Positions 6,253-24,615 of a DNA stretch of 32,972 nucleotides are shown here, piece after piece. This DNA is from Candidatus Parvarchaeota archaeon (GTDB lineage Archaea; Nanobdellota; Nanobdellia; JAFCGN01; DAOVEB01): NCBI GenBank assembly GCA_030669205.1, contig DAOVEB010000006.1, forward strand, positions 1-32,972, given 5' to 3'. Every line of letters begins with the position of its first letter. Position 1 is the first letter of the stretch. The position numbers were made by a program, and so were the translations under genes. The notes under the pieces are model-generated. The model worked only from the letters and a program-made list of their open reading frames with translations, ran no database searches and was not told the DNA's origin.

Positions 6253-7478
6253 TTTCTCCCCCCACCTTTCACCAGCCAGACACCTATTGCAGCCACCCAG
6301 AACAGTGACATCATGGCTGTGTAAAACATAGCGTAAGGTATAGTATAAAATACAGCCTTTTTATTTTCTTCGCTTGATAGTGACATCGAGTGCAGGGTGA
6401 CCACTACTGTCACTATGAAAAGCGCGGCAAACATCCATGTAAAGAGCGTCACTATTGATGTTGAGAAGAGAATGTCGAATTCTAATATATCCTTCAAGAG
6501 GTATGACCAGTCAAAGTTCACCAGCAAGGTATTCCTTACAAATCTCACAAAGCTGTTCACTGTGTCGCTGTACATCATATATGTCAGGAAAAGGAGCAAC
6601 GGCACCCATATGACGCTCAGAGGAAGAACAAACATACCGAGGTTCCCAAGCTTCTTGTTGAAGAACATATGCTTGAACTTTTTTACGTTGTGCAACAGGC
6701 CCACGTTCCATCTCAACCTCTGGTGGAACAGTTCCTTGAACTTATTTGCTGGACGAGTATATGTTACAGCGTTTATGGAAGCTGCAATACTATAGCCAGC
6801 GTCTACGATTTTGAGCGATATTTCAAGGTCCTCTGTGAGGTTTTTTTCGTCAAATTCACCGACTTCTTCGAGCAGGGATTTGCGGAAAAGTGTCCCAACC
6901 CCATGCGTCAGGTACAGGCTGTCAATCTCACTCATAACCTTTCTCATGAACATTGAGAGTATGTACTCTATCCACTGTATCTTTTCAATGATGTTCTTTG
7001 AACTTGATACGCGGGCAATGGGCATGACAGCTCCAACCTTTGGGTCATCAAAGTATCCAACCATGTTCCTGAACGCGTCCTTTGTGAAGTAGGAATCAGC
7101 GTCAAGTACAGAGATGATTTCTCCAGTTGCTCTTTTCAAACCTACATTGAGGGAGTTCGCCTTGCCGGTGTGGGATTTGTCAATCAGCTTCACACCCTCA
7201 ATTTTTTTGCAGACAGACATTGTATCATCAGTGCTGCCGTCGTTTATCACCACTATCTCAACCTTTGGGTAATCGAGTTCTTTGCAGGAGGAGATGGCCT
7301 TCTCTACATTATTGCAGTCGTTGTATACAGGTATGAGAACAGAGATTTTTGGGAATCTGGTAGGCTTGGGGTCCTTTTTTATCCGCTCCCTGTTCTTTAA
7401 GAATGCCACGAGCCAGTACAGTGTTACATATAGGATTGCAAAGTAGAGTCCAAGGAAGAGTCCTAGTGTGAGGTTCAT
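6234..7478 (-). CDS. Processive family 2 glycosyltransferase, membrane bound
   Basis: 414 residues: an N-terminal membrane helix (4-26), a GT2 domain, then three or four C-terminal helices. The motifs of processive beta-glycosyltransferases (cellulose/hyaluronan/chitin synthase type) are all present: NDGST (79-83), DAD (126-128), TED (215-217, catalytic base) and QRLRW (253-257). It should polymerise and export a polysaccharide from a nucleotide sugar. It appears leaderless: a palindromic ATTTATAAAT box centred 27 nt upstream is shared with the divergent GT-C gene. The downstream membrane thioredoxin overlaps it. Confidence 0.88.
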   Translation of the reverse strand: MNLTLGLFLGLYFAILYVTLYWLVAFLKNRERIKKDPKPTRFPKISVLIPVYNDCNNVEKAISSCKELDYPKVEIVVINDGSTDDTMSVCKKIEGVKLIDKSHTGKANSLNVGLKRATGEIISVLDADSYFTKDAFRNMVGYFDDPKVGAVMPIARVSSSKNIIEKIQWIEYILSMFMRKVMSEIDSLYLTHGVGTLFRKSLLEEVGEFDEKNLTEDLEISLKIVDAGYSIAASINAVTYTRPANKFKELFHQRLRWNVGLLHNVKKFKHMFFNKKLGNLGMFVLPLSVIWVPLLLFLTYMMYSDTVNSFVRFVRNTLLVNFDWSYLLKDILEFDILFSTSIVTLFTWMFAALFIVTVVVTLHSMSLSSEENKKAVFYTIPYAMFYTAMMSLFWVAAIGVWLVKGGGRKWEKRI

Positions 7479-7500
7479 CTATAATGATACTTTTCAAGCC

Positions 7501-7510
7501 ATTTATAAAT
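7501..7510. promoter_or_regulatory. Shared palindromic TATA-like box for divergent genes
   Basis: ATTTATAAAT is a perfect palindrome. Its centre is 27.5 nt from the minus-strand ATG at 7478 and 26.5 nt from the plus-strand ATG at 7532, the usual archaeal TATA-to-TSS distance on both sides. Both genes would therefore be leaderless and driven by one box. Confidence 0.65.
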
Positions 7511-7531
7511 ATGGATATTTTGAGAGACGGC

Positions 7532-8833
7532 ATGGGTAAGTTGTCCGTAGTGCTTCTTTTTGTTCTCTGCTCCACTTTCATGCTCTACCAGCACTCTACC
7601 GGCCTGTCTTGGGACTTTTCGGTGTATGTTTCCGGTGCACGGTGGTTTGCCGGCGAGCAGACTTACTTGGAAATCGCGAGACCGCCAATGTCATCCATCA
7701 TCATGGCTTCCCTGAGCCCGTTCGGTTGGCTTCCGGCAGAGTACTTATATGTGCTTGTCTCTGCCATCATGTCGGTTGGCGGCGCTTATCTCCTCTACAG
7801 GAAACATGGTCTTCCATTTGCCTTTGTCCCGCTCTTGATTTTGAACCCATTTTTTCTCAACACAGGAACGTCAGTTGGAACAGAAGCAATTGCAATGGCA
7901 ACCCTCCTCTTTTCGCTATATTTGTTCCCAAGTCCGATTTCGGGCGTTTTCTTTGGCATTTCATTCCTTTCCAGATACCCAATGTTCATCTTCGCAGCCG
8001 TTTTCCTGGTTCTGGCAGATTTCAGAGCTCCAAAAAAATGGTTTTCTCAACTTGCGAAGTTCGCAGCAGTAGCGCTCATCACCATCTCGCCATGGCTTTT
8101 TTGGAATTTCATCCAGACTGGCGACCCAGTCTTTTCAATGGTCGATAGCTACACCCATAACGTAAAAGCTCGCGGTTATTTTGAGTTCAACCCATCACTT
8201 GAGCACTTTCTGCCGGTGTCCAACATACTCACCCCCTTTGTCATTTTTGGCGTATTTCTTGCTCTGAGGAAACCTGGGAAGACAGAGTTGCTCTTTTTTC
8301 TCCTGTTCATTTTGAACACATTTTCTTACCTCACTACCCCTCACAAGGAATCCAGATATCTATTCCTAATCATCCCGTCTGTCGCGTACTTCTCTGCCGT
8401 TGTTCTGAAGACAGTTGGGACAGGGGTGACATCCGTTGTAGCTTTGCTCTGCGCATTTGCTTCGATTTCGTTTTTCCAGCCGTTGATGTCTCCCGACGCG
8501 TTTTCAGGAGTTCGTGGCTTTCTCGATGCAAAGGACTGCGCTACCATCTCCAACGTCTGGGTCTTCTTCGATTACTATGGAATGGTTTCCAAACCAGTCC
8601 CACCACAGTGGATGGTGGAGGAGCAGCTGGAAGAAGGTGTCCTGCTGCTGGTCTATAAGCATACGGCAGAGCCCGATTTCATCCTGCAGCAGGAGTTCAT
8701 CACCAGCCATCCGGTCCTGTACAACGACAGTTACTTCTATGTCTTTGGGAAAGAGCCATGCCAGCCAGCACCTGAAGATTACATGATTTCCTATAGATGG
8801 ATGCTTGCTAGTTATGGGATAGAGTGCTGTTGA
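7532..8833 (+). CDS. Polytopic membrane glycosyltransferase-like protein (PMT/ArnT type)
   Basis: 433 residues, about ten membrane segments. The first external loop SWDFSVYVSGARWFAGEQTYLEIARPPM carries the DFxVY...A...PP pattern of lipid-linked-sugar GT-C enzymes. A hydrophilic tail of about 90 residues ends with a cysteine pair. ATG 7532 is chosen because the TATA-like box at 7501-7510 lies 26 nt upstream; the in-frame ATGs at 7484 and 7511 lie before or against that box. Together with the GT2 enzyme and the 4253 gene it makes a surface-glycan cluster. Its 3' end overlaps truD by 26 bp (convergent). Substrate unknown. Confidence 0.65.
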   Translation: MGKLSVVLLFVLCSTFMLYQHSTGLSWDFSVYVSGARWFAGEQTYLEIARPPMSSIIMASLSPFGWLPAEYLYVLVSAIMSVGGAYLLYRKHGLPFAFVPLLILNPFFLNTGTSVGTEAIAMATLLFSLYLFPSPISGVFFGISFLSRYPMFIFAAVFLVLADFRAPKKWFSQLAKFAAVALITISPWLFWNFIQTGDPVFSMVDSYTHNVKARGYFEFNPSLEHFLPVSNILTPFVIFGVFLALRKPGKTELLFFLLFILNTFSYLTTPHKESRYLFLIIPSVAYFSAVVLKTVGTGVTSVVALLCAFASISFFQPLMSPDAFSGVRGFLDAKDCATISNVWVFFDYYGMVSKPVPPQWMVEEQLEEGVLLLVYKHTAEPDFILQQEFITSHPVLYNDSYFYVFGKEPCQPAPEDYMISYRWMLASYGIECC

Positions 8834-9905
8834 GCTCCCTTAAAAGTACAGTGGCGTAACTCCCTTTGGGAAGGGTGAATCTTATCCTGCACAGACCTTC
8901 CTCAACTTCCAGAACCTCAAACCCCTCTGGAACAAAGAAGCTTTTCCTAACAGTTCCACGGAACCCAAAATACTCAGGCCTGATTCCATCTTGCTCCAAT
9001 ATCTTACCTACGACCCCTTTGACTTCTGTATCGTTTCCAACAAGCGGGAGCTCATCAGGAATCTGATCCATCTCTTTCAACATCTCGTTGAATACACGTG
9101 ACTGGTAGGAGTGTACCATCAGTTTGCTCAGCGGCATACGTTTCATCACACTCCTGTACGACCTGCCATTTTGCAACCCCTGTAGAACACCCCTCTCAAG
9201 CCTGAACATCTTTGGGAACCTGCGCAAACCCTCATGCCAACTACCCCATCTCTCTGCTAAATATCTCCTCCAGTCTCCCTTTCCCAGAGGGTTTCCAGTC
9301 AAGAACTCTTTCACAGCATCCTCAAATTTCTCTTTTAGGATGTAGTTCCCCACTATATGGTTGTTGCGGCGAGAGCCGAATCTCTGCTCTCCAAAGTAGT
9401 TCCTCACCCCAAGTTTCACCCGCTCTCCAAAACGCTCCACAAGCCATTTTATCTCCTCCTTTGGTTTTGCTATCCCCCTTATTGTCACCGTAAACCTGTT
9501 GCCAATCAGGTTGCCTGGATATATCCTCCCATCCATGTAACTGAAACCCTTCACAACAATACCCCCCAGGTCTAATTTCCTCAGTTCTCTTACTCCACAG
9601 TCTTTTATTGAAATCCGCTGACCAGTAACAGCAACCCTGTCCTTCATACCAGCGTATGAGAGCCTGTGCTTCGAGATGCGAAGCGCCTTTGCGAGAACTC
9701 CGACTGCGCGTTGCGTTGTCAGATTTCTCTTCACGAGCGTGAAGTGGAGATAGTTCCTCTTCCTCTTTGGGACCCAGTCCGCAAATCGCTGCAACAGTGT
9801 ATAATTGACTGTGCAGATTCTGTTCTCATGGACCTCTTCAACTATGAAATCCTCCGGAAGCGATTTGATTTGCCCGCCCAAACCCATACCTATGTGGACC
9901 TTCAC
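8808..9905 (-). CDS. truD: tRNA pseudouridine(13) synthase TruD
   Basis: Isomerises U13 in the D-arm of tRNA. SLPEDFIVEE marks the conserved N-terminus and GMKDRVAVTGQ contains the catalytic Asp (D89 from this start). YPGNLIGNRFTVTIRG, NYFGEQRFGSRRNN and VHSYQSRVFNEML are further TruD family blocks. The GTG at 9905 gives 365 aa and lies 26 nt from a TATA-like run that also suits trm56. The ATG at 9887 (359 aa) is the alternative. The open frame extends much further upstream, but only as the antisense of trm56. Slightly shorter at the N-terminus than most archaeal TruD. Confidence 0.9.
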   Translation of the reverse strand: MKVHIGMGLGGQIKSLPEDFIVEEVHENRICTVNYTLLQRFADWVPKRKRNYLHFTLVKRNLTTQRAVGVLAKALRISKHRLSYAGMKDRVAVTGQRISIKDCGVRELRKLDLGGIVVKGFSYMDGRIYPGNLIGNRFTVTIRGIAKPKEEIKWLVERFGERVKLGVRNYFGEQRFGSRRNNHIVGNYILKEKFEDAVKEFLTGNPLGKGDWRRYLAERWGSWHEGLRRFPKMFRLERGVLQGLQNGRSYRSVMKRMPLSKLMVHSYQSRVFNEMLKEMDQIPDELPLVGNDTEVKGVVGKILEQDGIRPEYFGFRGTVRKSFFVPEGFEVLEVEEGLCRIRFTLPKGSYATVLLRELNSTLSHN

Positions 9906-9926
9906 ATCAAGAACAAAACAGACACG

Positions 9927-9935
9927 ATTAAAAAA
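9927..9935. promoter_or_regulatory. Shared TATA-like box for truD and trm56
   Basis: ATTAAAAAA is centred about 26 nt from the plus-strand ATG at 9957 and about 26 nt from the minus-strand GTG at 9905. It is the only long A/T run between the two genes. Confidence 0.45.
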
Positions 9936-9956
9936 GGTTGATGAATGGTTTGTTTT

Positions 9957-10463
9957 ATGCTGGCTGTGCTGAGGCTTGGTCACCGCGTTTCGAGAGACAA
10001 GCGTATAACGACCCACGTCTTTTTGACAGCACGGGCCTTTGGCGCGGACAAAGGATACCTCTCCGGCGAGAAGGATGATTCCGCAATCTCCAACATCCAG
10101 GACATCTCTAAGAGATGGGGTGGCGAATTCGAAGTCGAATACATTGACGACTGGAAGAACTTCCTGACCAGGTTGGGCAGCACAGTAGTCCACCTTACCA
10201 TGTATGGAATCCCTGTGGGTGATAAAATATCTGAGATAAGGAAACACAAAGATATTCTGGTCGTTGTCGGTGGCGAGAAGGTCCCAACAGAAGTCTACCA
10301 GCTTGCAGACTTCAACGTCTCCGTAACCAACCAGCCACACTCAGAGGTGGCTGCGCTCGCAATCTTTCTCGACCGATACTTTGAGGGTAAAGAGCTGGAT
10401 AGGAACTTCCCAGACGCGAAGCAGAGAATCATCCCGAGCGATAAGGGGAAAAGGTTTGGTTAA
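9957..10463 (+). CDS. trm56: tRNA (cytidine(56)-2'-O)-methyltransferase Trm56
   Basis: SPOUT-class enzyme that methylates the ribose of C56 in the T-loop of archaeal tRNAs using S-adenosylmethionine. The N-terminus MLAVLRLGHRVSRDKRITTH followed by VFLTARAFGA is the signature of this archaeal family. The trefoil-knot region VVVGGEKVPTEVYQLADFNVSVTNQPHSEVAALAIFLDR is clear. ATG 9957 is preferred: homologues begin at this point and a TATA-like box lies 26 nt upstream. ATG 9945, with AAGGT before it, would add four residues. 168 residues; 22 bp separate its stop from the convergent rad50. Confidence 0.92.
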   Translation: MLAVLRLGHRVSRDKRITTHVFLTARAFGADKGYLSGEKDDSAISNIQDISKRWGGEFEVEYIDDWKNFLTRLGSTVVHLTMYGIPVGDKISEIRKHKDILVVVGGEKVPTEVYQLADFNVSVTNQPHSEVAALAIFLDRYFEGKELDRNFPDAKQRIIPSDKGKRFG

Positions 10464-10485: not shown

Positions 10486-12462
10486 TCATGTCCTCACTTC
10501 TTCGACCTTTGAGACTCCCCTCACCTTCTCAACGTTGAAGAGGTAATCTGCCGCCTCTTTCAACTCCTCTGCGTGCGTGACTATCACAATCTGTGGTATG
10601 GTCTTTATGTTTTTCAGGGCTTCTGGCAGCGCCCGTATGTCGTCAGAGTCAAAGCCGGTTGTTGGCTCATCGAGCATCAGGACCTCGCTCTCGGAAACCC
10701 CACCAATCTGCGCAGCTATGTCTGCGAGCGCGAGCCTGTAAGCGAGCGCGACAGATGTCTTCTCGCCCCCTGAAAGTGTTGTCACAGGAACCTCCTCCCC
10801 TTGGGAGTAGGCTATGGACTCGTAATCACTTTTGACGTCAACAGAGTAATCATCTTCAAACTGGCGTATCTCCTCAAACTTCGCTTGGAACTCGACCTTG
10901 AACTCGGATAAAAATCGGGTGCGTACCTTTTCCCTTATCTCCCTTATGTCCTCGCGCAACTTTGAGAGAACCTTCACCAATGAACCGATCTTTCCCAAGT
11001 CCTTCCTGAGCGCTGCGAACTTCTCCAGTTCCTTCTCCAGCCCCCGGACATCTGAGAGGTTCCTCCTTTTCTCCTCCTCATGGGCCTTGAGCCCGCTCTT
11101 CAGACCAGCAACCTCTGCTGAGAGCACATTGTACCTGTCTCTGATACTTCCAATCTTCTCACTGTCATATCCCTTGACTTCACCCTCCACAAGCACAAAT
11201 TTCTTGCGAAGCCCTGTTAGTTCCTGCTCCAACCTTTTCATCTCACGTTCTTTCTCCTCCAGCAGTCTTCTGTCTGATTCAAGAATATTCGTAATGCCAT
11301 CCCTCCTCTTTGCCCGTTCAACCTCCTTAATAACTTCTGCGAGTTCTTCTGACAGTTTTGAGACATTTTTCCGCAACCCGTCCATCTTTGACCTGTATTC
11401 ACCCCCAATCTTCTTCCTATGTTCAGGCGTTATCTCCGAACCGCAGAGTGGGCATCTGTTACCAAGCGAGTCCAGTTTCCTCATCTTTTCAGGCAGCTCC
11501 TTCAACTCTTCGTTTGAGAACGATATTGCAGAGCGGATTTCAGCCATCCTTGCCACCATCTTTTCAGTTTCGCCGGCTTTTGGAACTTCGGTCATATCAA
11601 TCTTGTTTTTCAGGGCTTCTACCTTTGCCTTTGAGGACAAGAGTTCTGAGTTGAGCGAAGCAATCCTCGCATCCAGCGCATCGTACTCAGACATGAGCAC
11701 CTTGAACTTTCCCTCTTCCTTTTCCACCATCTCCAACTCGGACTTTGTCACTTCGAGATCCTTGCTCTTGCGGGCCAACCCATCTCCAACCCCCTTGATT
11801 TTGGCATCGAGCTCCGCAATCCTATTTCCGAACTCCTTGGTCTGTTTGGTCACCCTTTCCTCACCCTTCAGTCTCTCCTCCATCCGGTCTTTCTCTCTGA
11901 TGAAGTGACCCAAGACATCCTTCATTCCTTCCCAGGTATTTTGGTACCTCTGTATCTGCAGAAGTTTGTCTATGTACTTCTGCCTCTCCGCAGGCCTCAT
12001 CTCAATCAACTTTCTCATTTCATCCTGCTTGGAGTACGTGGTGACCTCAAAGAGTTTTACTGGGTCTATTCCTTTGGGATAGCCCAATACTTCCACTATC
12101 TTCTCGTTCAGGTCGCTTGCCCGTCCAAGCAATGGCAACCTCTCACCATCCACATCTATTGAGAGATTCGACGTGTCGACCATCACATTCCCCCCATGTT
12201 CCTTCAGACCACGTCTCACCAGATATACACTGCCCCTGTGCTCAAACTCAAGCTCAACATGCCCACTTTTTGAACCCCTTCTCAAAAGTTCAGAGTTCGG
12301 GATTCTAGCTTCTGAGCCGAACAGCGCGTAACTCACACCCATCATAATCGAAGACTTCCCAGAGCCAGTTCGGCCGGTGAAAACAATGATACCCTTGCCA
12401 AAGTCCACCTCAGTATCGCGGTGCGAGCGTATCTTTCTCAGCTTCAGCGACTTCAGCTTCAT
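10486..12462 (-). CDS. rad50: DNA double-strand break repair ATPase Rad50
   Basis: 658 residues. Walker A GRTGSGKSS (30-38), zinc hook CPLC (C337, C340), ABC signature TLSGGEK (562-568), Walker B VLMLDEP (594-600) and the VTH switch histidine. Long charged coiled coils flank the hook. The SMC-like ATPase works with Mre11 in tethering and resecting broken DNA ends. It is clearly shorter than the roughly 850-900 aa common in archaea; the loss is in the coiled-coil arms. The start codon overlaps the mre11 stop (ATGA) and has GGTGGGGG upstream. Confidence 0.95.
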   Translation of the reverse strand: MKLKSLKLRKIRSHRDTEVDFGKGIIVFTGRTGSGKSSIMMGVSYALFGSEARIPNSELLRRGSKSGHVELEFEHRGSVYLVRRGLKEHGGNVMVDTSNLSIDVDGERLPLLGRASDLNEKIVEVLGYPKGIDPVKLFEVTTYSKQDEMRKLIEMRPAERQKYIDKLLQIQRYQNTWEGMKDVLGHFIREKDRMEERLKGEERVTKQTKEFGNRIAELDAKIKGVGDGLARKSKDLEVTKSELEMVEKEEGKFKVLMSEYDALDARIASLNSELLSSKAKVEALKNKIDMTEVPKAGETEKMVARMAEIRSAISFSNEELKELPEKMRKLDSLGNRCPLCGSEITPEHRKKIGGEYRSKMDGLRKNVSKLSEELAEVIKEVERAKRRDGITNILESDRRLLEEKEREMKRLEQELTGLRKKFVLVEGEVKGYDSEKIGSIRDRYNVLSAEVAGLKSGLKAHEEEKRRNLSDVRGLEKELEKFAALRKDLGKIGSLVKVLSKLREDIREIREKVRTRFLSEFKVEFQAKFEEIRQFEDDYSVDVKSDYESIAYSQGEEVPVTTLSGGEKTSVALAYRLALADIAAQIGGVSESEVLMLDEPTTGFDSDDIRALPEALKNIKTIPQIVIVTHAEELKEAADYLFNVEKVRGVSKVEEVRT

Positions 12463-13604
12463 AGGGCATCCCCCACCAGCTTTCTGGCCTCCATGACAGC
12501 CCCCTCTCTTTCAGACGGGGTCATCTCACCGCCAAGGACATTTATCAGGTTGAGTGCGAGCTCCACCATCTTACCATCATAACCCGATGATTCTAGGAAG
12601 TCGCGTTCTATCTCTTTCAACGACCTTTTTTTTGTCTCCACGTATACTTTACTTTCCGGATTTGCGAGTTGGGAGATGTACACCTTTGCTGTGAGAAATC
12701 CACGTTCCCTTGCCACGGCGTCGATCATCTGCCTGTCTATCGACGCCTTGGTACCTTTGGTCAACCTACCTTTCAACCTGATTATGACCATCTCACCGTC
12801 CCCCTCCTCTGGCAATGACTCTATGCACAGTCTGTTCACCTCCTCTGCACTACACTCCACTTTCAACTCCTTGACAGTTGCGTTCCTTGAATTTGACTTC
12901 ACCCACTTCTTCTCACCCTCGTCAACGATGTAGAATCCCCGTTCTTCTCCCATCTCATCAGCTGTGTTGAACTCTGTTGACCCTGGATAGACAACAATCC
13001 CTTTCCCATAGCTGAACTCACATCTTTTGTGCCAGTGGCCGCCTGCGTAGTAGTCGAACCCTGGCGGGAGCAGTGACATTGGTATGTCTGCTGTTATGTT
13101 GTCCGCCTCACTTATGGTATGGTGGAAAACAAAGATGTTGTACTTACCACCGGGCTTCACTTCAAATCCCTCGTACATACCGCGAGCATTCACCCTCCTG
13201 CCCGGCATACCACAGATGAAACAGCCATTGATTATCTCACCAGTCAGCAGAATTTTATCCCCATCCTTGTGATACCTACTGTCTGCCAGGTTTACCGCCA
13301 AGTCCAGCTCGTCCAGCAACTGGACCGGGGACTCGGTGAGTGAGACGTCGTGGGAGCCCCAGACCACGAAAAACGGAATCCCGTGCTTTTTCAGCCTTTT
13401 CAGCTGTTTTATACACTTTATCATTGTTGTTATCGATGGCTTACCAACGTCGAACAGATCGCCGGAGTGGACAACAAAGTCAACCTCTTGCTTGATTGCA
13501 GTATCAACCACCTTTTCAAAGGCCTTGAAGAAGTCTTGCTTTCGCTCTTCCAGCCGGAAGTTGCTCCTTCCCAAATGAGTATCACCGCAGTGTATGAAGC
13601 GCAT
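12459..13604 (-). CDS. mre11: DNA double-strand break repair nuclease Mre11
   Basis: 381 residues. The calcineurin-like phosphoesterase motifs are complete: GDTHLG (D8, H10), HSGDLFD (D49), GSHD (83-86), FHH (161/162) and GGHWH (H190, H192). Motif III reads GSHD instead of the commoner GNHD/E. Mn-dependent exo/endonuclease that processes DNA ends with Rad50. ATG 13604 (MRFIHCGDTHLG) matches family starts; the 24 upstream codons in frame are not coding by this view. A TTTTAAA box 25 nt upstream is shared with the divergent TIM-barrel gene. Confidence 0.95.
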   Translation of the reverse strand: MRFIHCGDTHLGRSNFRLEERKQDFFKAFEKVVDTAIKQEVDFVVHSGDLFDVGKPSITTMIKCIKQLKRLKKHGIPFFVVWGSHDVSLTESPVQLLDELDLAVNLADSRYHKDGDKILLTGEIINGCFICGMPGRRVNARGMYEGFEVKPGGKYNIFVFHHTISEADNITADIPMSLLPPGFDYYAGGHWHKRCEFSYGKGIVVYPGSTEFNTADEMGEERGFYIVDEGEKKWVKSNSRNATVKELKVECSAEEVNRLCIESLPEEGDGEMVIIRLKGRLTKGTKASIDRQMIDAVARERGFLTAKVYISQLANPESKVYVETKKRSLKEIERDFLESSGYDGKMVELALNLINVLGGEMTPSEREGAVMEARKLVGDAL

Positions 13605-13625
13605 GTCAAAGGGAATACACAATTG

Positions 13626-13632
13626 TTTTAAA
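13626..13632. promoter_or_regulatory. Shared palindromic TATA-like box for mre11 and the TIM-barrel gene
   Basis: TTTTAAA contains the palindrome TTTAAA (13627-13632), whose centre is exactly 25.5 nt from the ATG at 13604 (minus) and 25.5 nt from the ATG at 13655 (plus). Confidence 0.6.
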
Positions 13633-13654
13633 GCGTTTTTGATGGTCTTTCCAC

Positions 13655-14404
13655 ATGTTCTGGGGTGTGAAGTCACACTGGACAGATTTCCGATGGTCCG
13701 GAGACATAGCCTATGGTCTTGAACTGCATGAGAACGAGGAGGACATGTACTCTTTACTGAGTGAGCAGAAGGCAGAGGTCTTGTCTCTTGGGAGGCCGAC
13801 TGCTGTACACGTGCCGATACGGACGAACGGAAAGTTGTTCGGCCTCTCTGATGAGAGAGAGTTAGGACTTGCTGTGAAGTGTGCTAAAATCGGCGGACTT
13901 GTGGTTGTCCATGGCGACTTCAGAGTGAGCGGGTTCCCGGACAGGCTCAGAACCCTGCTAGAGTCAACCGACTCAGTCATCTGTCTTGAGAACAGACCCG
14001 GAATCTTCCACAAACGGCACAAACTCAGCTACCCGGAGGACTTCAAAAAAGTCTTCGACAAGGTTGACCACAAAAGGCTTGGGATAACACTAGATATTGC
14101 CCACCTCTGGATGGGCCGAGACCCTAAGACAACATTCGATAGGTTCATCGATGATTTTTCCAACAAGATACGGCACATCCACATGGTTGATTCAGACGGG
14201 AAAGAGGAGAGGCAGATAGGCTACGGCATGGTTGATTTTGACCACGTTTTTGAGAGGCTCTCCGAGTTGAAGAGGGATGTGATGGTCATACCAGAAGTTC
14301 CTGGTGGTCAGATTGCATGTGGTGCTGGTTTCAGATACGCCATAAACAAACTCCGTAGCTATCCTATAAGCCAACGACCGGCCTCTCCTTCTTCATGGCC
14401 TTGA
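13655..14404 (+). CDS. Endonuclease IV-like / xylose-isomerase-like TIM-barrel protein
   Basis: 249 residues of the AP endonuclease family 2 fold. Candidate metal ligands sit in the expected order: H52 (AVHVP), H86 (VVVHGD), E112 (CLENRPG), D147 and H150 (TLDIAH), H174/H176 (RHIHMVD), D194 (GYGMVDF) and E214 (VIPEVPG). This is nearly the trinuclear zinc set of endonuclease IV, although the protein is shorter than the usual 280-290 aa. Its divergent promoter is shared with mre11-rad50 and it is convergent with herA, so an abasic-site or 3'-end repair role is attractive. A sugar isomerase cannot be excluded. The last 41 bp overlap herA. Confidence 0.7.
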   Translation: MFWGVKSHWTDFRWSGDIAYGLELHENEEDMYSLLSEQKAEVLSLGRPTAVHVPIRTNGKLFGLSDERELGLAVKCAKIGGLVVVHGDFRVSGFPDRLRTLLESTDSVICLENRPGIFHKRHKLSYPEDFKKVFDKVDHKRLGITLDIAHLWMGRDPKTTFDRFIDDFSNKIRHIHMVDSDGKEERQIGYGMVDFDHVFERLSELKRDVMVIPEVPGGQIACGAGFRYAINKLRSYPISQRPASPSSWP

Positions 14405-15893
14405 GCAGGTCGTCGAACAGAAATACCTTCACAGGCATTGGAAACTCTAGAAACGGACTGGTTACAATGGCCTCGCCTGCGTCGAGCATCTGTATCTCAG
14501 TTGACTCGTCAGCTATGTTCTGCGCGGACGAGTTCACAACAGCGTCCCTGTCCATTGGCGCAGGAAGCCCGAGAATCACCTTGGTATTCATCTGCGACAG
14601 TATCTCGCGCGGCAGCAGACTTGGCATCTGGGTTATAGCGCACAGCCCGACCTTGAACTTCCTGCCTTCACGTGCGACACGCGCGAAGATATTGTTACCA
14701 CCTTGCAGCACGTTCACACCGAGGACACGCGGTGCCTCTTCAAAGATTATCAGAAGCTCAGGAAGTTTTGCGAACCGCTCAGGATTGACCTGTTTTGTCT
14801 TCCTGTAGAGGGCAAACACTCTGGAGAGTATTGAAGAGGATATCAACTTCTCTGATTCGTCCCCCACAAGCGAGGTGTCAAGTATGACTGTCTTTCCTTC
14901 AAGCACAGCTTTGTTTATCTTCTCGTGTACAGACGGGACCTTGCGCCTCTCAAGTGTGAAGACCAGACCACTTCTCCCGTCCAACTCCATCATATAGTTC
15001 ATCTTCCTGCGAAGAGCATAGAGAGTTGAGCGGTGTATCTTGCCACCCGTGTTTTCAACAAGCTCATTTATCTGTTTGTCAGCAACAAGGCTCGCGAGCC
15101 AGTCTTCATTGTAAACCCTGTACAGTGTGTCCAGTGCCTCCTGCTGCGCCTCACTCAGACCGACTATGCCTATGAAGTCCCCTGGCTCCAAGTCCTCGGC
15201 GTAGAGTATCAGCGGTTCGCTCCCTGGCTTTTCCTCGAACCTGGGTGTGAATAGCACAATTCTCTCGCGGAGCGCATGGCTGTTCAAACCCTTGATTCCC
15301 TTGGTACCATAGTATTCATCATGTGGGTCGATAATGATGGACGCATGGTTCTCAAGTGGGAGCAGACCGCTTGCAAAGACCTTTGCAAAGTTCGACTTGC
15401 CCTTACCAGTGGCTGCGACCACAAGCATGTGGTGTGATATCAGCTTCTTTGCAGGCAGGCTTATTGTTACGTCTATATCCTTTGTTCCCAGGCGCAGCCT
15501 CCCAATTGGTACCTCTCCAACGTTTTTCAGGAATTCGAAATCCTTTTCTGTCACCAGCATGACGTCTGAGAAGAAGTGGGGTATTGTCCTCGGCGGGACA
15601 AACCTCTCCTTTTTGACCTTGAGTGTCTTGGCCCTGCAGACCCTGTAGAACCTGTCCTTCTCGTCGTAGAGGTCGTACTCAAGGTCGTACTCAAGTTTCT
15701 GCCCAGCCATGTCCTCTATGAACTGGCCTGGGACAAGTGAGGCAATTCCCATGTCTATGACCTTTACGTAGAAGATGCTCTTCCGGTCCCGAACAACCAA
15801 GATGTCTCCAACATCTATTTCCGCACCCGAATGCAGCCGGATGAAGATTTTTTCAGAGACACTACCTCCTATGACCTTACCTATTGTTTCCAT
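14364..15893 (-). CDS. herA: HerA DNA helicase/translocase
   Basis: 509 residues. An N-terminal HAS-barrel (1-90) is followed by a FtsK/HerA RecA-like ATPase with Walker A VAATGKGKSN (about 159-168), IIIDPHDEYYG, Walker B LLIIFEEAPRVLG, and the arginine/sensor region ITQMPSLLPREILSQMNTKVILG. Hexameric bipolar translocase that works with NurA in end resection. ATG 15893 (METIGKVIGGSV) is chosen because a symmetric box lies 25.5 nt upstream; ATG 15911 would lie on that box. The gene contains a 12-bp tandem duplication near 15669-15692 encoding LEYDLEYDLYD. Confidence 0.93.
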   Translation of the reverse strand: METIGKVIGGSVSEKIFIRLHSGAEIDVGDILVVRDRKSIFYVKVIDMGIASLVPGQFIEDMAGQKLEYDLEYDLYDEKDRFYRVCRAKTLKVKKERFVPPRTIPHFFSDVMLVTEKDFEFLKNVGEVPIGRLRLGTKDIDVTISLPAKKLISHHMLVVAATGKGKSNFAKVFASGLLPLENHASIIIDPHDEYYGTKGIKGLNSHALRERIVLFTPRFEEKPGSEPLILYAEDLEPGDFIGIVGLSEAQQEALDTLYRVYNEDWLASLVADKQINELVENTGGKIHRSTLYALRRKMNYMMELDGRSGLVFTLERRKVPSVHEKINKAVLEGKTVILDTSLVGDESEKLISSSILSRVFALYRKTKQVNPERFAKLPELLIIFEEAPRVLGVNVLQGGNNIFARVAREGRKFKVGLCAITQMPSLLPREILSQMNTKVILGLPAPMDRDAVVNSSAQNIADESTEIQMLDAGEAIVTSPFLEFPMPVKVFLFDDLLKAMKKERPVVGL

Positions 15894-15910
15894 AACTCCA
15901 ACTAAAGACA

Positions 15911-15926
15911 AGGTTTTTAATAACCT
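15911..15926. promoter_or_regulatory. Shared symmetric promoter box for herA and the HD-protein gene
   Basis: Perfect arms AGGTT and AACCT flank TTTAAT. The centre is 25.5 nt from ATG 15893 (minus) and 25.5 nt from ATG 15944 (plus). Confidence 0.62.
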
Positions 15927-15943
15927 TTTGAATCAGCCCCTCC

Positions 15944-16939
15944 ATGAAAATAGTTAGCCACTATGGTGGGGTAGAACTTGAATTTGACGGCTTGCTGGCT
16001 GAAGATGCTTTGGACAGGCTGAAGAGGGTTACCCTGGCTAACATACCAAAGTCCCTGTGCGAGGAATCTTCAGATGTCACCAGATTCGAGCATTCCGTGG
16101 GCGTTTACCACCTGGCGTGCTTGGTCCAGGCAGATGAGGAAGACAGCAGATTACTCAAAGTGTCTTCACTTCTTCATGATATAGGCATACCTTGCTTCAG
16201 CCATATAGGCGAGAGAATCATGATGAAAATCCATGACTTTGACCATGAGAAGCACGGCTCAAATATGGTCATGGATGGAAACATAGGGGATTTGATATCA
16301 AAGGGAGGTGTAGAGCCATGTGATGTGCGCGATATATTCCTCAAAAAACACTATCTGTCTCCACTCCTTTTCGGCTCAATGGACCTTGACAACCTTGACA
16401 ACATAAGCCTTTACTGGAGTTCAATAGGCGAGCCAGTTCATTATAGTCCTGAGGGAATGGCGTCCCTCTTCTCGGTCGAAGGCGGAAGAGTGCTTTTTTC
16501 CGGGACTGCCAATGATATCGCTGGTTGGAGGCGGACAAGACGCGACCTTTACATGAGCCTCAACACAGTTGAGAGGAGGACAAGGGAGGTCATGCTCATG
16601 CATGCCTTGGAGATGTGTGCCGAAGAGATTCCCGACGTCCTGTTCATGGACAACTGCCAGGCCATGGCTGAGATGATGGAGAACAGCGGGTCGTCCAGAA
16701 TATTAAAAGGCCTCGAGAACAACATCCTCTACGAGTCAGTTGTCTTCAAACCTGTGCCATTTTGCGACAGGGAGAAACTGGAGAAGAAAATGGCAGAGAA
16801 ATATCCTGACTGCGTTTTGAAGATAGACCATCTGAAGCTTGACAGGGACATCTCCTTCTGGGACACCCATGGTGAACTGAAGGAATTTCCCAGAACTCAC
16901 AAGGATAGGATGCACGTTGGAGTCTACAAACCCTTCTGA
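15944..16939 (+). CDS. HD-domain phosphohydrolase (dGTPase/SAMHD1-like)
   Basis: 331 residues. The HD motifs follow the order of the dNTPase-like subfamily: TRFEHSVGVYHLA (first His), SSLLHDIGIPCFSH (HD pair) and a later Asp in SMDLDNLDN. This subfamily hydrolyses dNTPs or other nucleoside phosphates, but the substrate here is not known. It shares a symmetric promoter with herA and ends one base before the convergent nurA stop, so it sits between the two partners of the resection machine. A dNTP-pool or DNA-end function is an inference from that placement. Confidence 0.75.
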   Translation: MKIVSHYGGVELEFDGLLAEDALDRLKRVTLANIPKSLCEESSDVTRFEHSVGVYHLACLVQADEEDSRLLKVSSLLHDIGIPCFSHIGERIMMKIHDFDHEKHGSNMVMDGNIGDLISKGGVEPCDVRDIFLKKHYLSPLLFGSMDLDNLDNISLYWSSIGEPVHYSPEGMASLFSVEGGRVLFSGTANDIAGWRRTRRDLYMSLNTVERRTREVMLMHALEMCAEEIPDVLFMDNCQAMAEMMENSGSSRILKGLENNILYESVVFKPVPFCDREKLEKKMAEKYPDCVLKIDHLKLDRDISFWDTHGELKEFPRTHKDRMHVGVYKPF

Positions 16940-19821: not shown

Positions 19822-20791
19822 TTGATATGACACCCCCTTCCATTTTCACACTCAAACCAAATCTTGAACAGGTTTTGATGCTACTTTTTATATGTTCCGT
19901 TTTACAGTTGCAGGCGAACCTGCCCCCTGTCAGCGCAACGTACGGAATCATGTTGTCCGCTGCATGCGGATCAACAACTCCTTCAAGCCTTGACTTTAAA
20001 AGTTCAGCACATCTTTTTCCCACCATCTCACTTGGCAGGCCCCTCTTCCCAAGCACGTCAGCACCTATAACGCTGTTTTCAAACAGCGCTCGCAGAACAA
20101 TGTAACTCCCAGTGCTTAAGACATCCACATAACTCGAACTGATCTTCGCATCTTTAAGGTATTTCATCGCAGACCTCTTCTGTCTCTCAGCAACCCTGGC
20201 TTTTGTGAGCTCCTTACTGGCAACGGAGACCCCACTGATTCCGAGCGGTTCTCCTTTTTCCAGAATTTCCAACTTCCTTATTTTTGAGCCCTTTACCTGC
20301 ACAACCACATCAGCACCACCCTTTGGATAGAAGCCATGTCTCTTCACAACCACATCCACGTCCGCGCCAAATATCCGCATGATTTCAAGGAGAACAATTT
20401 CCATGTAGTCCACGGGGGGCGACCATCTGCCAGCTGTCCCCCCTCCATTTATTTCAATGGTGGACGATTTCCCTGAGAGCAGATAGACTGGCAGAAGCGC
20501 CTGCATCACAAGACCTACGCTGCCAGCTGTCCCTATCTTGACGTTGACCTTACCACCGACTATCTCACTAGGGATGAACTCGATTTCCCTTGAACCAACA
20601 ACACACCCGGACAACTCTGCACCACACGCCTTTGCAACGCTTTTCACAGCTGCCAAATGTTGGGCTTTGACTCCGGGTGCCTTGCGCTGTGACCTTATAT
20701 TGCTCACCTTTATAGGCTTCCCAAGCAGGGCGCTGAGCGCAACAGACGTGCGTAGCACTTGTCCGCCCGCAGAGCCGTCAATTTCTAACAT
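19808..20791 (-). CDS. rtcA: RNA 3'-terminal phosphate cyclase
   Basis: 327 residues. EIDGSAGGQVLRTSVALSALLG opens the protein, HGFYPKGGADV is the conserved central block, and DPHAADNMIPYVAL contains the histidine that is adenylylated. Converts RNA 3'-phosphate to 2',3'-cyclic phosphate with ATP. The ATG has GGAG 5 nt upstream and overlaps the regulator gene by 7 nt. Downstream overlap with a DHH phosphoesterase links it to RNA/DNA end processing. Normal length. Confidence 0.93.
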   Translation of the reverse strand: MLEIDGSAGGQVLRTSVALSALLGKPIKVSNIRSQRKAPGVKAQHLAAVKSVAKACGAELSGCVVGSREIEFIPSEIVGGKVNVKIGTAGSVGLVMQALLPVYLLSGKSSTIEINGGGTAGRWSPPVDYMEIVLLEIMRIFGADVDVVVKRHGFYPKGGADVVVQVKGSKIRKLEILEKGEPLGISGVSVASKELTKARVAERQKRSAMKYLKDAKISSSYVDVLSTGSYIVLRALFENSVIGADVLGKRGLPSEMVGKRCAELLKSRLEGVVDPHAADNMIPYVALTGGRFACNCKTEHIKSSIKTCSRFGLSVKMEGGVISSEGA

Positions 20792-21045
20792 ATTCTCTCC
20801 AACCTTTTGAGAAGCGCCTGCATGTCCATACTGAAATCGCCGACCTTGGTTGTCACAACCGCTCCAGCAGTTGTTGGTTTCACAAGACGCTCCTTTTGTA
20901 GAACTCTCAACGAATATCTGACCCTATGTGCCTGAATCTGAAGCTCCTTTGAGATTTTGAGCATACCTATAGGTCCCTTTCTTTTCACGAGTGCAAGCAC
21001 TTTCAGATGCCTCTCAAGAACCTCTAGTTCCCGCGCGAGCATAGG
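20785..21045 (-). CDS. Small winged-helix transcriptional regulator
   Basis: 86 residues. HLKVLALVKRKGPIGMLKIS followed by KELQIQAHRVRYSLRVLQKERLV is a helix-turn-helix with recognition helix, then a wing (PTTAGAVVTTK). It resembles the archaeal small wHTH proteins that precede metabolic genes. ATG 21045 is chosen because TTATTTAA on the minus strand is about 25 nt upstream; ATG 21051 is possible. Heads the operon with rtcA and may regulate it. Target unknown. Confidence 0.65.
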   Translation of the reverse strand, partial: PMLARELEVLERHLKVLALVKRKGPIGMLKISKELQIQAHRVRYSLRVLQKERLVKPTTAGAVVTTKVGDFSMDMQALLKRLERIC

Positions 21046-21065
21046 CATGACACTCTCTGCAGTGC

Positions 21066-21073
21066 TTAAATAA
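21066..21073 (-). promoter_or_regulatory. TATA-like box for the regulator-rtcA operon
   Basis: TTATTTAA on the minus strand, centred about 25 nt from ATG 21045. It is separate from the tyrS box, so this divergent pair does not share one element. Confidence 0.45.
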
Positions 21074-21088
21074 TTGTTGAAATGATAA

Positions 21089-21097
21089 ATATTTAAT
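21089..21097 (+). promoter_or_regulatory. TATA-like box for tyrS
   Basis: ATATTTAAT lies about 27-29 nt before ATG 21122, consistent with a leaderless tyrS transcript. Confidence 0.5.
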
Positions 21098-21121
21098 AGG
21101 TGCAACTCATGGTTTAGAACC

Positions 21122-22234
21122 ATGGATACAGCTTCCAGATTTGAACTCATAATGAGGAAACCGACTGAAGAGGTCATAACTGAGTCGGACTTGAATAATT
21201 TGCTGGAGACAAAAACCAGAATAAAGCACTATATGGGGTTCGAGATATCTGGCCTCATCCACATTGGTTCGGGTTTGGTCAGCGCTTTGAAGGTTGCAGA
21301 CCTCCAGAAAGCGGGTGTAAGATGCTCAATCTTCCTCGCTGACTGGCACGCATGGATAAACAACAAACTAGGCGGCGACCTGGAGACAATAACGCGGATA
21401 GCAGGTGGCTACTTCAAGGAGGGAATATACGCCTCGATAAAGGCCATGGGTGGAAGACCAGACAAGGTAGACTTTGTGCTCGGCTCGGATTTGTATCACC
21501 ACAACGACGAGTACTGGAAACTATTTGTGGACGTTGCCAAGAAGATGACATTGCGCAGGGCGCTCCGCTCAATCACTATAATGGGCAGGAGTGAGGGTGA
21601 GGAAATTGAGTTTGGACAGCTTCTCTATCCTCCCATGCAGGTTGCCGACATCTTCATACAAGGGATTAAACTTGCCCATGCTGGCACAGACCAGCGCAAG
21701 GCGCATGTGATTGCAAGGGATGTCGCCCTGAAATTAAAGACTGTTAAACGAACTTACAAACCTGTTGCCATCCACCAGCACCTGATTTTGGGGCTGCGCA
21801 AGCCCCCTAAATGGCCAATTCCATCTGACATGAACAGACATGAGCTGTTGACTTCTATGAAGATGAGCAAGAGCATAGCCTCATCATCCATCTTTATACA
21901 CGAGCCAGCAAAGATGGTAGAGAAAAAGGTGATGGCCGGCTTCTGCCCTGCAAAGGAGACAGGGTTCAACCCTGTTCTTGACTGGTGTGAGTTTCTCGTC
22001 TTCCCCTCAAAAGGTGAACTCGCAGTCACAAGGGATGTCAAGTATGGGGGAGACATCACCTATGCAGACTTTGAAGAACTGAAACGGGAATTTGCAGCTG
22101 GGAAACTCCATCCTTCAGATTTGAAGAGCGCAGTTGCCAACTCCATAAACTCTATGCTTGAACCCGTGAGGAACCACTTCAGCAAAAAACAGCAACTGAT
22201 AAAAGAGATGGAAGACATCAAAGTTACCCGATGA
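21122..22234 (+). CDS. tyrS: Tyrosyl-tRNA synthetase
   Basis: 370 residues. FELIMRKPTEEVITESDLNNLL is the usual archaeal TyrRS opening. MGFEISGLIHIGS holds the class I HIGH-equivalent (HIGS), FLADWHAWINNKLGGD follows, AHAGTDQRKAHVIARD is the tyrosine-pocket region of this archaeal subtype, and KMSKS is intact. Charges tRNA-Tyr. Appears leaderless. First gene of an operon with the TtuA/Ncs6-like and RimB-like genes (ATGA overlap at 22231). Confidence 0.9.
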   Translation: MDTASRFELIMRKPTEEVITESDLNNLLETKTRIKHYMGFEISGLIHIGSGLVSALKVADLQKAGVRCSIFLADWHAWINNKLGGDLETITRIAGGYFKEGIYASIKAMGGRPDKVDFVLGSDLYHHNDEYWKLFVDVAKKMTLRRALRSITIMGRSEGEEIEFGQLLYPPMQVADIFIQGIKLAHAGTDQRKAHVIARDVALKLKTVKRTYKPVAIHQHLILGLRKPPKWPIPSDMNRHELLTSMKMSKSIASSSIFIHEPAKMVEKKVMAGFCPAKETGFNPVLDWCEFLVFPSKGELAVTRDVKYGGDITYADFEELKREFAAGKLHPSDLKSAVANSINSMLEPVRNHFSKKQQLIKEMEDIKVTR

Positions 22235-22764
22235 GATGCAGGAACTGCGGAAGGAAGGGCTATATCCACCTACCTTACCTCAAGGAACATCTCTGCAAGA
22301 AATGCTTTGTCCGCATGGTTGAGAGGAGAATCCGGCTCAACCTCAGGAAAAGTCTGCTCAGTGGTGATGAGGACAGAGTTTCGATTGTTGACAACAACAA
22401 CGCTGCTACAGTGGTCTGCAAGCACTATCTTCCAAAGGTCTTCGGCGAGATGTACGGTTCGAAGCTAATGGTTGGAAAACGACGCGGGTACAAGCTATTC
22501 GCCTGCAGGTCCCTTGAAGGGGAGTGCGTCTCATTCTTCAGAAGCATCCTGCTCAACAAGCCTTACAAAAGGGTACTGAATCCAACTATGAACCTCCCCC
22601 AAAGAGAGCTTGAAGAGTACTGCAAGATAAAGGATTTAAGGTTTGAGAGACAATTACTTGACAGTGATGTGCTCGCCTTTTTACGCGAGCTTGAGGACGC
22701 CAGACCCGGAGCCATGTTTGGCACAATAAAGGCGGTGAACAACCTTGATAATCGGTTATGTTGA
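22231..22764 (+). CDS. Short TtuA/Ncs6-like protein with degenerate PP-loop
   Basis: 177 residues. The N-terminal zinc finger (C3, C6, C22, C25) and the following MVERRIRLNLRKSLL segment match the start of TtuA/Ncs6 tRNA thiolases. The C-terminal FLRELEDARPGAMFGTIKAVNNL matches their end (usually ERPGTKFS). Where the ATP-binding SGGKDS should be, the sequence reads SIVDNNNAAT (51-60), so the PP-loop is lost, and the protein is about half the usual length. Probably not an active thiolase; perhaps an RNA-binding or regulatory paralogue. Overlaps tyrS by ATGA. Confidence 0.65.
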   Translation: MRCRNCGRKGYIHLPYLKEHLCKKCFVRMVERRIRLNLRKSLLSGDEDRVSIVDNNNAATVVCKHYLPKVFGEMYGSKLMVGKRRGYKLFACRSLEGECVSFFRSILLNKPYKRVLNPTMNLPQRELEEYCKIKDLRFERQLLDSDVLAFLRELEDARPGAMFGTIKAVNNLDNRLC

Positions 22765-23086
22765 ACCTGTCCTTCTCTTGGGCAACAGGAGAAGGAAAAA
22801 GGTTATTGCACGTATAGACACAGGAGCATTCCGTTCGTCTGTAGACATCACTATAGCTTCTGAACTCAGACTTAAAAGGGTGGGTAAAAAAAGGGTCAGG
22901 AGTGCACTTGCGCACGAAGAGAGACCGGTTGTCAATATTTCATTCTACCTCGCAGGAAAAAAAATAGAGACCCAAGCCACTGTCGCAAGGCGCTCGCACA
23001 TGACTTATTCGATGCTTGTTGGCAGACGCGACCTTGAGGGTTTTCTCGTGGAACCGTCCAAAAGAGAGATTTCACAACCTTTATAA
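22745..23086 (+). CDS. RimB-like retropepsin-fold protease (PF05618 type)
   Basis: 113 residues. ARIDTGAFRSSVD (D25-T26-G27-A28) is the aspartic-protease-like active-site loop of the family named ATP-dependent zinc protease, whose bacterial member RimB partners the glutamate ligase RimK. The rest (RPVVNISFYLAGKKIETQAT, SMLVGRRDLEGFLV) fits the beta-rich fold. Start is TTG 22745, supported by GGTGA 6 nt upstream and a 20-nt overlap with the previous gene. A RimK-like ATP-grasp gene follows 23 bp downstream. Confidence 0.72.
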   Translation: MIIGYVEPVLLLGNRRRKKVIARIDTGAFRSSVDITIASELRLKRVGKKRVRSALAHEERPVVNISFYLAGKKIETQATVARRSHMTYSMLVGRRDLEGFLVEPSKREISQPL

Positions 23087-23089
23087 TAA
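23080..23089 (+). promoter_or_regulatory. TATA-like box for the RimK-like gene
   Basis: TTTATAATAA, centred 25.5 nt before ATG 23110. It overlaps the stop codon of the RimB-like gene, so the ligase can be transcribed on its own. Confidence 0.5.
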
Positions 23090-23109
23090 TCCTTGAGGTC
23101 TCATGTTTT

Positions 23110-24069
23110 ATGAAAGCCTGTGTGCTGGCTTACAAGGGCATCACGAAATCAAAGGATTATTACCTGAAGCTTGTCAAGGAGATGGAGAGATACTTCAAGC
23201 CCGTTCTTCTGGCACCAATTGACAACGTTATTATTGAGGTGAAAGATGATGTACATGTCACATACAAGGGCAAAGACCTCAAGAACTTCGATGTTATCCT
23301 TCCAAGAATAGGACCAAGCTTTATCCCGTTCGGAACCCTCATACTCAGCCATCTTGAAGAGGATGTATACTTCCCCAACACGATTGAAGCGTACAGAGTC
23401 GCTTCAAACAAGTTTTACACCCTGATGGAGCTCAGCAAGCACAACATTCCCGTTCCAAGGACACTGCTGACAATCTCCCAGGAGATGTCCAAGAGCCTGC
23501 TGAAATCTGTGGGCGAACCAGTGATAATCAAGAGGCTTGGCACATCCGGAGGCAAAGGTGTAGTCTACGCAAAGGACATCCAGTCCGCCAACACCTTTCT
23601 GGACGCCTTTCCACACAAGAGAGGCCAAGAAATCCTTGTGGAGGAATATATCAAGAACCCTGGTGAGGATGTACGCCTTTTTGTCATCGGTGATGAGGTA
23701 GTTGCGTGCATGAAAAGGATATCAAAGAAAGATGATGTGCGCAGCAACATCCACGCGGGCGGAAAAGGAGTCCCATACTCCCCGACTGATGAGATGGTCA
23801 AGCTGGCTGTGAAAGCCGCAAAGGTCATAGGTGCAGATATATGTGGTGTGGACATAATAGACGGGCCTGGCGGCCCCTACGTAATCGAGTGCAACATGAA
23901 TCCAGGCTTTGCCATATCCCGCATCACAGGTGTGAATATCTTCAGGCGCATGGCCGAGTTCACCTTCAAAAATGCCCGCATATTCCACCATGTTGAGGAA
24001 ATTTCGATTTTTGAGAGAGTGAATGAGAGGTTCTCAACGTTCTTCAAAGAGCTTGAGGATAGGTTATAG
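23110..24069 (+). CDS. RimK-family ATP-grasp ligase
   Basis: 319 residues. The ATP-grasp fold is clear: EPVIIKRLGTSGGKGVVYAK (nucleotide-binding glycine loop), QEILVEEYI, DVRLFVIGDEVVACMKR, and the metal site GVDIIDGPGGPYVIECNMNPGF (ExN). RimK-type enzymes add glutamate, often to protein or cofactor C-termini. Archaeal relatives include MptN/CofF and lysine/arginine-pathway ligases (LysX). A RimB-like protease immediately upstream favours protein glutamylation. It ends in a 6-bp convergent overlap with pth2. Substrate unknown. Confidence 0.8.
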   Translation: MKACVLAYKGITKSKDYYLKLVKEMERYFKPVLLAPIDNVIIEVKDDVHVTYKGKDLKNFDVILPRIGPSFIPFGTLILSHLEEDVYFPNTIEAYRVASNKFYTLMELSKHNIPVPRTLLTISQEMSKSLLKSVGEPVIIKRLGTSGGKGVVYAKDIQSANTFLDAFPHKRGQEILVEEYIKNPGEDVRLFVIGDEVVACMKRISKKDDVRSNIHAGGKGVPYSPTDEMVKLAVKAAKVIGADICGVDIIDGPGGPYVIECNMNPGFAISRITGVNIFRRMAEFTFKNARIFHHVEEISIFERVNERFSTFFKELEDRL

Positions 24070-24399
24070 AAGCGGAAGGTCGCCAACGACCTTGTCGACC
24101 TTGTACTCTCTGTCCGGACCGATGGACAGACATGTTATGGTGTTTGGCTTCAACTCGGTTTTACCAGCGTCCCTGATGAACTCGTATCTGACCCTGTTTC
24201 TCTTGGCCCTGTCTGCTATCGTCTTGAGGTGCTCCAAGTCACGTGCCTTGAGAACTATCTTTTTTTGGCCACCCCGTTTCCACACCTCAAACATCGCCTT
24301 GCTGACCTTCATAGAATTCAGTGCAGCGTGCGCTGCCTGGGCTGCCAGTTTACCCGTGGACATGCCAAGGTCTTCTCTGACAACAATCGCCTGTTTCAT
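24064..24399 (-). CDS. pth2: Peptidyl-tRNA hydrolase, Pth2 type
   Basis: 111 residues. MKQAIVVREDLGMSTGKLAA followed by QAAHAAL is the Pth2 signature, and NTITCLSIGPDREYKVDKVVGDLPLL the usual C-terminus. Releases tRNA from stalled peptidyl-tRNA. ATG 24399 fits family starts; the longer open frame upstream covers the divergent zinc-ribbon gene in antisense and is rejected. Shares a TATA-like box with that gene. Confidence 0.94.
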   Translation of the reverse strand: MKQAIVVREDLGMSTGKLAAQAAHAALNSMKVSKAMFEVWKRGGQKKIVLKARDLEHLKTIADRAKRNRVRYEFIRDAGKTELKPNTITCLSIGPDREYKVDKVVGDLPLL

Positions 24400-24419
24400 A
24401 CAGATATAGCCATCGAAAG

Positions 24420-24428
24420 ATATTAAAA
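24420..24428. promoter_or_regulatory. Shared TATA-like box for pth2 and the zinc ribbon-aEF1B operon
   Basis: ATATTAAAA. Its TTAA core is centred 25.5 nt from ATG 24399 (minus) and 26.5 nt from ATG 24451 (plus). Confidence 0.58.
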
Positions 24429-24450
24429 CGGTTGTGTTTTGGGTTGCACC

Positions 24451-24615
24451 ATGAAAAAGGAGTGCATCTCTTGTAAGGTTGACATATCCGCAGTTAACAA
24501 CTCTGTGATATTTGACTGCCCTTCGTGCGGCAAGGTTGAAATAGTCCGCTGTGGCAAGTGCAGAGGTCTTTCTACTGACTACAGATGCCCTAACTGCGAT
24601 TTTGTAGGTCCTTAA
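24451..24615 (+). CDS. Small zinc-ribbon protein (HVO_2753-like)
   Basis: 54 residues with four CxxC knuckles: C5/C8, C23/C26, C34/C37 and C46/C49, enough for two zinc ions. This is the DUF1610/HVO_2753-type archaeal zinc ribbon, commonly encoded next to aEF1B, as here (one base between TAA and the next ATG). Exact role unknown; the genomic link points to translation. Leaderless start 26.5 nt from the shared box. Confidence 0.85.
   Translation: MKKECISCKVDISAVNNSVIFDCPSCGKVEIVRCGKCRGLSTDYRCPNCDFVGP

Follow-up and report, generated by a model that had tools for sequence, protein, structure and literature searches.

The window examined here, a 32,972-nucleotide stretch of Candidatus Parvarchaeota archaeon DNA (contig DAOVEB010000006.1, positions 1 to 32,972 of the forward strand), carries five pairs of divergently oriented protein genes, the start codons of which (GTG at 9905, ATG at the other nine) are separated by 51-54 nt (Table 1). 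Within each spacer a single near-symmetric A/T box has been found, whose centre deviates by at most 1 nt from the start-to-start midpoint in all five pairs, and which is flanked in pairs 2-5 by sequences resembling the TFB recognition element (BRE) on both sides. The spacing corresponds to two box-to-start distances of leaderless genes, and the five intergenic regions are probably compact bidirectional archaeal promoters, in which one near-symmetric box would serve two leaderless mRNAs. The coordinates, distances and boxes given for these pairs in a preliminary description of the window have all been recovered by direct reading and by script. The genome itself comprises 911 kb in 68 contigs with an estimated completeness of 88%, and the own-genome statistics reported below cover 877 of the 911 kb, with predicted starts on an incomplete assembly. 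Its HerA is 57% identical to that of the nearest named relative, which is labelled Candidatus Parvarchaeota. Scans of the window for Rfam families and tRNAs have found none.

Table 1. Divergent gene pairs of the window, their central boxes and flanking elements, with contrasting layouts and one neighbouring frame.
Feature	Positions	Start-to-start distance	Genes	Box	BRE-like sequence	Basis
Pair 1	7478(-)/7532(+)	54 nt	GT2 glycosyltransferase (6234-7478 -) / unknown membrane-like protein (7532-8833 +)	ATTTATAAAT 7501-7510, perfect palindrome; centre 7505.5, midpoint 7505	weak on both sides	Pfam
Pair 2	9905(-, GTG)/9957(+)	52 nt	TruD (8808-9905 -) / aTrm56 (9957-10463 +)	ATTAAAAAA 9927-9935; centre 9931 = midpoint	9920-9924 (+), 9938-9942 (-)	Pfam
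Pair 3	13604(-)/13655(+)	51 nt	Mre11 (12459-13604 -), then Rad50 (10486-12462 -) / AP_endonuc_2 TIM-barrel protein (13655-14404 +)	TTTAAA 13627-13632; centre 13629.5 = midpoint	13618-13622 (+, CACAA), 13637-13641 (-, CAAAA)	Pfam
Pair 4	15893(-)/15944(+)	51 nt	HerA (14364-15893 -) / HD-domain protein (15944-16939 +)	AGGTT-TTTAAT-AACCT 15911-15926; centre 15918.5 = midpoint	15907-15911 (+, GACAA), 15926-15930 (-, CAAAA)	Pfam
Pair 5	24399(-)/24451(+)	52 nt	Pth2 (24064-24399 -) / HVO_2753-like small zinc-finger protein (24451-24615 +)	ATATTAAAA 24420-24428; centre 24424, midpoint 24425	24414-24418 (+, CGAAA), 24432-24436 (-, CACAA)	Pfam
EF-1beta-like ORF	24617-24871		follows the HVO_2753-like gene of pair 5			Position and homology only
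Contrast pair, commoner two-box layout	32451..32539	88 nt		two boxes 33 bp apart
Contrast pair, abutting boxes	2171..2216	45 nt		two boxes, separation -10

The start codons on which this geometry depends have been approached independently of the promoters. A promoter-blind gene caller, consisting of a hexamer coding model run on the 877 kb, calls starts for nine of the ten genes and agrees in eight (7478, 9905, 9957, 13604, 13655, 15893, 15944 and 24399); the 54-aa gene at 24451 is missed by the coding model, and Pfam confirms it as an HVO_2753-like zinc finger. The Mre11 start is further backed by alignments, in which its N-terminus matches many relatives from residue 1. When a promoter matrix trained on non-divergent genes only has been scored against random positions, a BRE+TATA motif has been seen at 10/10 starts, each ranking in the top 0.03-0.5%; the alternative starts at 7484, 7511, 9945, 13676, 15911 and elsewhere have obtained far lower promoter scores. 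Pair 4 reaches the top summed score of the five pairs (7.4 and 7.2); pair 1 scores 3.2 and 4.25, with +4.25 for 7532 as compared with -9.4 for the alternative at 7484. A Shine-Dalgarno motif has not been found ahead of any of the ten starts. The proposed use of the spacing as a tool to choose start codons is supported.

The promoters belong to a genome that, judged by its A/T profile, its fixed-distance BRE/TATA motif and its Shine-Dalgarno contrast, is predicted to be largely leaderless, which supports the leaderless transcripts of the preliminary description. Ahead of divergent genes, when starts have been called blind to promoters, the A/T content peaks at 0.81-0.86 between -29 and -24, and expectation-maximisation has recovered a motif of fixed spacing, composed of a BRE (S-R-A-A-A) at -37 to -33 and a TATA element (TTTWTAA) at -30 to -24. 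This fixed BRE/TATA arrangement (-37 to -24) is carried by ∼92% of divergent, 60% of distant-tandem and 50% of operon genes, and Shine-Dalgarno-like motifs have been observed in 6-7% of boxed divergent or distant-tandem genes, 12% of boxed operon genes and 24-41% of unboxed genes. Two modes of translation start seem to coexist in this genome, as far as can be judged from such motifs; the unboxed genes lie mostly within operons, and about 40% of such operon genes have a Shine-Dalgarno-like motif. The genome holds two separate TBP genes (C28:13337-13855 and C63:2050-2574, frames of 213 and 195 aa), a full TFB gene on contig C16 and, as a weaker match, another TFIIB-like frame (182 aa) on contig C4. 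A literature search has yielded no publication that treats leaderless promoters of this lineage.

Genome-wide, 119 divergent pairs have been identified, in 99 of which both genes have a scored box, and one shared box, defined by a separation within +/-2 bp, is present in 19 of the 119 (about 16%), where a smoothed null predicts 5-6. Outside the window 15 of 92 pairs with two scored boxes share a box against ∼4 expected under the same null (P <= 2.5e-4), and the same-order genome G002 has 10 such pairs against ∼4 (P 0.001-0.012); a further genome, G006, has 36 divergent pairs, too few to inform, and a gene-sparse haloarchaeal plasmid stretch (DL31) has been left out of the comparison. Part of the information behind these promoter-aware statistics comes from the motif under test, although the matrix derives from non-divergent genes and controls have been run: decoy motif positions at least 8 nt away from the true one yield 0-2 shared pairs, shifts of only 4 nt, by which part of the true signal is still caught, yield 6 and 12, and column-permuted motifs yield a mean of 0.8 and a maximum of 6, as compared with 19. 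In 19/19 pairs the shared box outscores every other box for both genes by a margin above 2 nats, and the claim that one box may serve both directions is strengthened by this preference and by the excess itself. With promoter-blind starts, pairs 48-57 nt apart have a strong midpoint box that longer pairs do not have (p = 5e-4 in this genome, 8e-4 in G002), and the BRE signal lies on both sides of this box, as opposed to mainly one side in tandem promoters.

The shared box is one of a small number of layouts. The 51-54 nt class is real but a minority, and among the 99 scored pairs the remaining box separations fall at -19 to -3 bp (9 pairs), +3 to +19 (3), +20 to +35 (39), +36 to +60 (12) and beyond (16). 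Most numerous are pairs with separate back-to-back boxes at a distance of 20-35 bp, in which ∼74-95 nt lie between the starts. Hardly any pair falls in the zone of +3 to +19 bp; an overlap of motifs fits this gap, as the BREs reach ∼10.5 bp outward from the box centre, so that two promoters placed back to back require about 21 bp. Divergent starts 39-45 nt apart form a further, small class, with boxes at about -9 to -15 bp that abut or face each other and BREs pointing outward (2171-2216 in the window; loci L098, L109, L112, L114 and L115). Helical phasing of the box separations has not been detected, the Rayleigh values being unremarkable (maximum 3.7 over 8 periods). The shared box had been put forward as a general architecture, a role that does not agree with its share of the divergent pairs, since the two-box layout is commoner; the window is rich in shared boxes (4/7 called pairs, plus Pth2/zinc finger, as compared with 15/112 elsewhere, p = 0.008), which presumably explains why the pattern was spotted there.

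Regarding the mode of start assignment, one may suppose that chance and a bias in start picking have produced the pattern, as genes with several candidate starts (3.7 per gene on average) would always yield some pair ∼52 nt apart around an A/T run. This is improbable, since the coding model by itself picks nearly all called window starts, the excess is not reproduced by decoy positions or permuted motifs, and the midpoint box is seen with promoter-blind starts in two genomes; what speaks for it is the weak excess of coding-only distances of 49-56 nt outside the window (16 vs 11 and 11, p = 0.16). Of the start-distance distribution proposed earlier as a check, a real genome-wide excess of the spacing is supported, with 51-54 nt as a minority mode. 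The coding-only excess is not significant alone, and therefore the statistics rest partly on promoter-informed starts. Further observations weigh against bidirectional promoters in the same sense: the coding model has passed over the plus start of pair 1 at 7532 and chosen 7484, the BREs of this pair are poor on both sides, the surplus of BRE signal on both sides, when set against tandem promoters, is of borderline significance (p = 0.05 and 0.07), and a start-independent scan of G002 has not placed the shared box above shuffles, because the motif alone is too weak in sequence of 29% GC (the main comparison genome being AT-rich). Alternatively, each gene could possess its own TATA element a few bases apart from the other, so that two distinct promoters overlap and the sharing is only apparent. 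We consider this unlikely, though less so than chance: separations in this genome do span -2 to +2 and some pairs have abutting boxes at -8 to -10, but an offset of 2 bp or less falls inside one TBP footprint, and no second box of comparable score has been found for either gene.

Whether the pairing of genes carries a meaning beyond the promoter can be judged from the relatives, for which ortholog starts have been hand-picked among the in-frame ATGs nearest to the aligned start and are less independent than the own-genome set. The TruD/aTrm56 pair is divergent in the two same-order genomes as well and has a shared box there, at 55 nt in G001 and 54 nt in G002, the latter value hinging on the choice between two ATGs (66 nt with the alternative); the pair appears with 47 nt and boxes at -8 in G006 and with 36-38 nt and boxes at -18/-15 in G013/G023. 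An orthologous divergent Pth2/zinc-finger pair is present in several relatives of the class, with start distances of 46 nt in G006, 38 in G045, 45 in G023, 57 in G022 and 80 in G009, where two boxes are found, as compared with 52 nt here. In every ortholog scored a box is kept ∼25-30 nt from each start and the separation varies, and other conserved divergent pairs likewise switch layout between genomes. It is quite likely that the shared-box spacing has arisen through genome compaction, in which selection has squeezed divergent spacers, a palindromic shared box is a short workable layout and the pairing is without regulatory meaning. Orthologous pairs that change layout with an own box for each gene (TruD/aTrm56 at 36-55 nt, Pth2/zinc finger at 38-80 nt), the layout differences of further conserved pairs, and the position of the commonest two-box layout near the tightest packing without motif overlap all favour compaction, against which stands the retention of the TruD/aTrm56 shared box in three same-order genomes. 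Compaction is compatible with a bidirectional promoter, as it concerns purpose and not mechanism. A functional coupling, in which shared boxes would co-regulate DNA-repair genes, had been suggested for mre11-rad50 with the endonuclease-IV-like gene and for herA with the HD gene, and it draws on the place of Mre11, Rad50 and HerA in DNA end processing and on the adjacency of the partners in this genome. We regard it as very unlikely: herA, mre11 and rad50 are co-directional in relatives and often contiguous, the AP-endonuclease and HD genes have not been detected beside them there, a TBP-TFB complex, being oriented, would fire in one direction at a time, and no relation is seen between the partners of the remaining pairs (glycosyltransferase/unknown, TruD/aTrm56, Pth2/zinc finger). 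Judged by the relatives, pairs 3 and 4 look like arrangements specific to the lineage, and the shared box looks like one of few fixed ways of promoter packing, not a special link between genes. The herA-mre11-rad50 run (10486-15893) is split here by the reversed AP_endonuc_2 gene, whose 3' end overlaps that of herA by 41 nt. Rad50 is short, with 658 aa as compared with ∼870-895 positions in the NCBIfam archaeal Rad50 models, and that of the same-order G002 aligns over equal length.

TBP binds a near-symmetric box in either sense, and the direction of transcription is set by the contact of TFB with the BRE. Applied to the bidirectional promoters proposed here, a single near-symmetric TATA box between two BREs (poor in pair 1) would lie ∼26 bp from both start codons; TBP would occupy the box, TFB would join in either orientation, steered by the flanking BRE, and RNA polymerase would start ∼26 bp away, at or a few nt from the start codon, giving a leaderless mRNA. 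Because each TBP-TFB complex is oriented, one firing event would proceed in one direction, so that the two directions would be alternative uses of one site and not a joint switch. The transcription start sites, the two-way use of one box and the mutual exclusion are what we infer from sequence. Preferred layouts would be few under such a mechanism: one shared box, abutting boxes, or back-to-back boxes at least 20 bp apart. More tentatively, one might postulate a packing grammar for divergent promoters of leaderless DPANN archaea, in which TBP-TFB overlap would confine box separations to registers (0; about -8 to -10; about -14 to -18; +20 or more), orthologous pairs would jump between registers and the shared-box register would form a mutually exclusive two-way switch; beyond 0 and +20 this idea draws on few pairs per register. 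If these readings are true, the sequences of uncultured leaderless archaea would allow start codons and promoters to be read together, the spacing of divergent starts would become a readout of the TBP-TFB packing limit and of when genes must share a box, and shared, abutting and back-to-back boxes would provide a natural series for testing the competition between neighbours at shared boxes.

The combination of a shared box with a fixed distance fits the known archaeal bidirectional BRE-TATA-BRE promoter. For Pyrococcus furiosus, divergent in vitro transcription from one TATA with start sites 49 bp apart has been described together with BRE-TATA-BRE motifs in a dRNA-seq study of 2019 (PMC6640164). 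Common to both is a near-symmetric TATA midway between starts ∼50 bp apart, for which the start codons serve as proxy here, and BRE-like sequences lie on both sides in pairs 2-5 of the window; the differences are that the P. furiosus promoters have been RNA-mapped, have been analysed mainly for antisense RNAs upstream of head-to-tail genes and belong to an organism that is not mainly leaderless, whereas here protein genes lie on both sides, start codons coincide with predicted start sites, and the layout is known from sequence alone. Symmetric core elements also cause divergent transcription in Escherichia coli, where, according to a summary (PMC12825309) of Warman et al. (2021), 19% of the detected RNAs are made in this way; E. 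coli promoters share a -10 element, and their start sites flank it or fall inside it, so that the spacing differs from the 51-54 nt found here. The window does not agree with a bacterial symmetric -10 promoter, given predicted starts 51-54 nt apart, the BRE/TATA motif and the genes for TBP and TFB. In motif, position and lack of a Shine-Dalgarno sequence the elements resemble leaderless archaeal promoters, with their TATA ∼26 nt upstream of the start codon, which are ordinarily described gene by gene and are combined here into divergent layouts with preferred box separations. No new mechanism is shown, and the preliminary interpretation is partly supported: a known archaeal mechanism would serve a leaderless archaeon as one compact layout among several.

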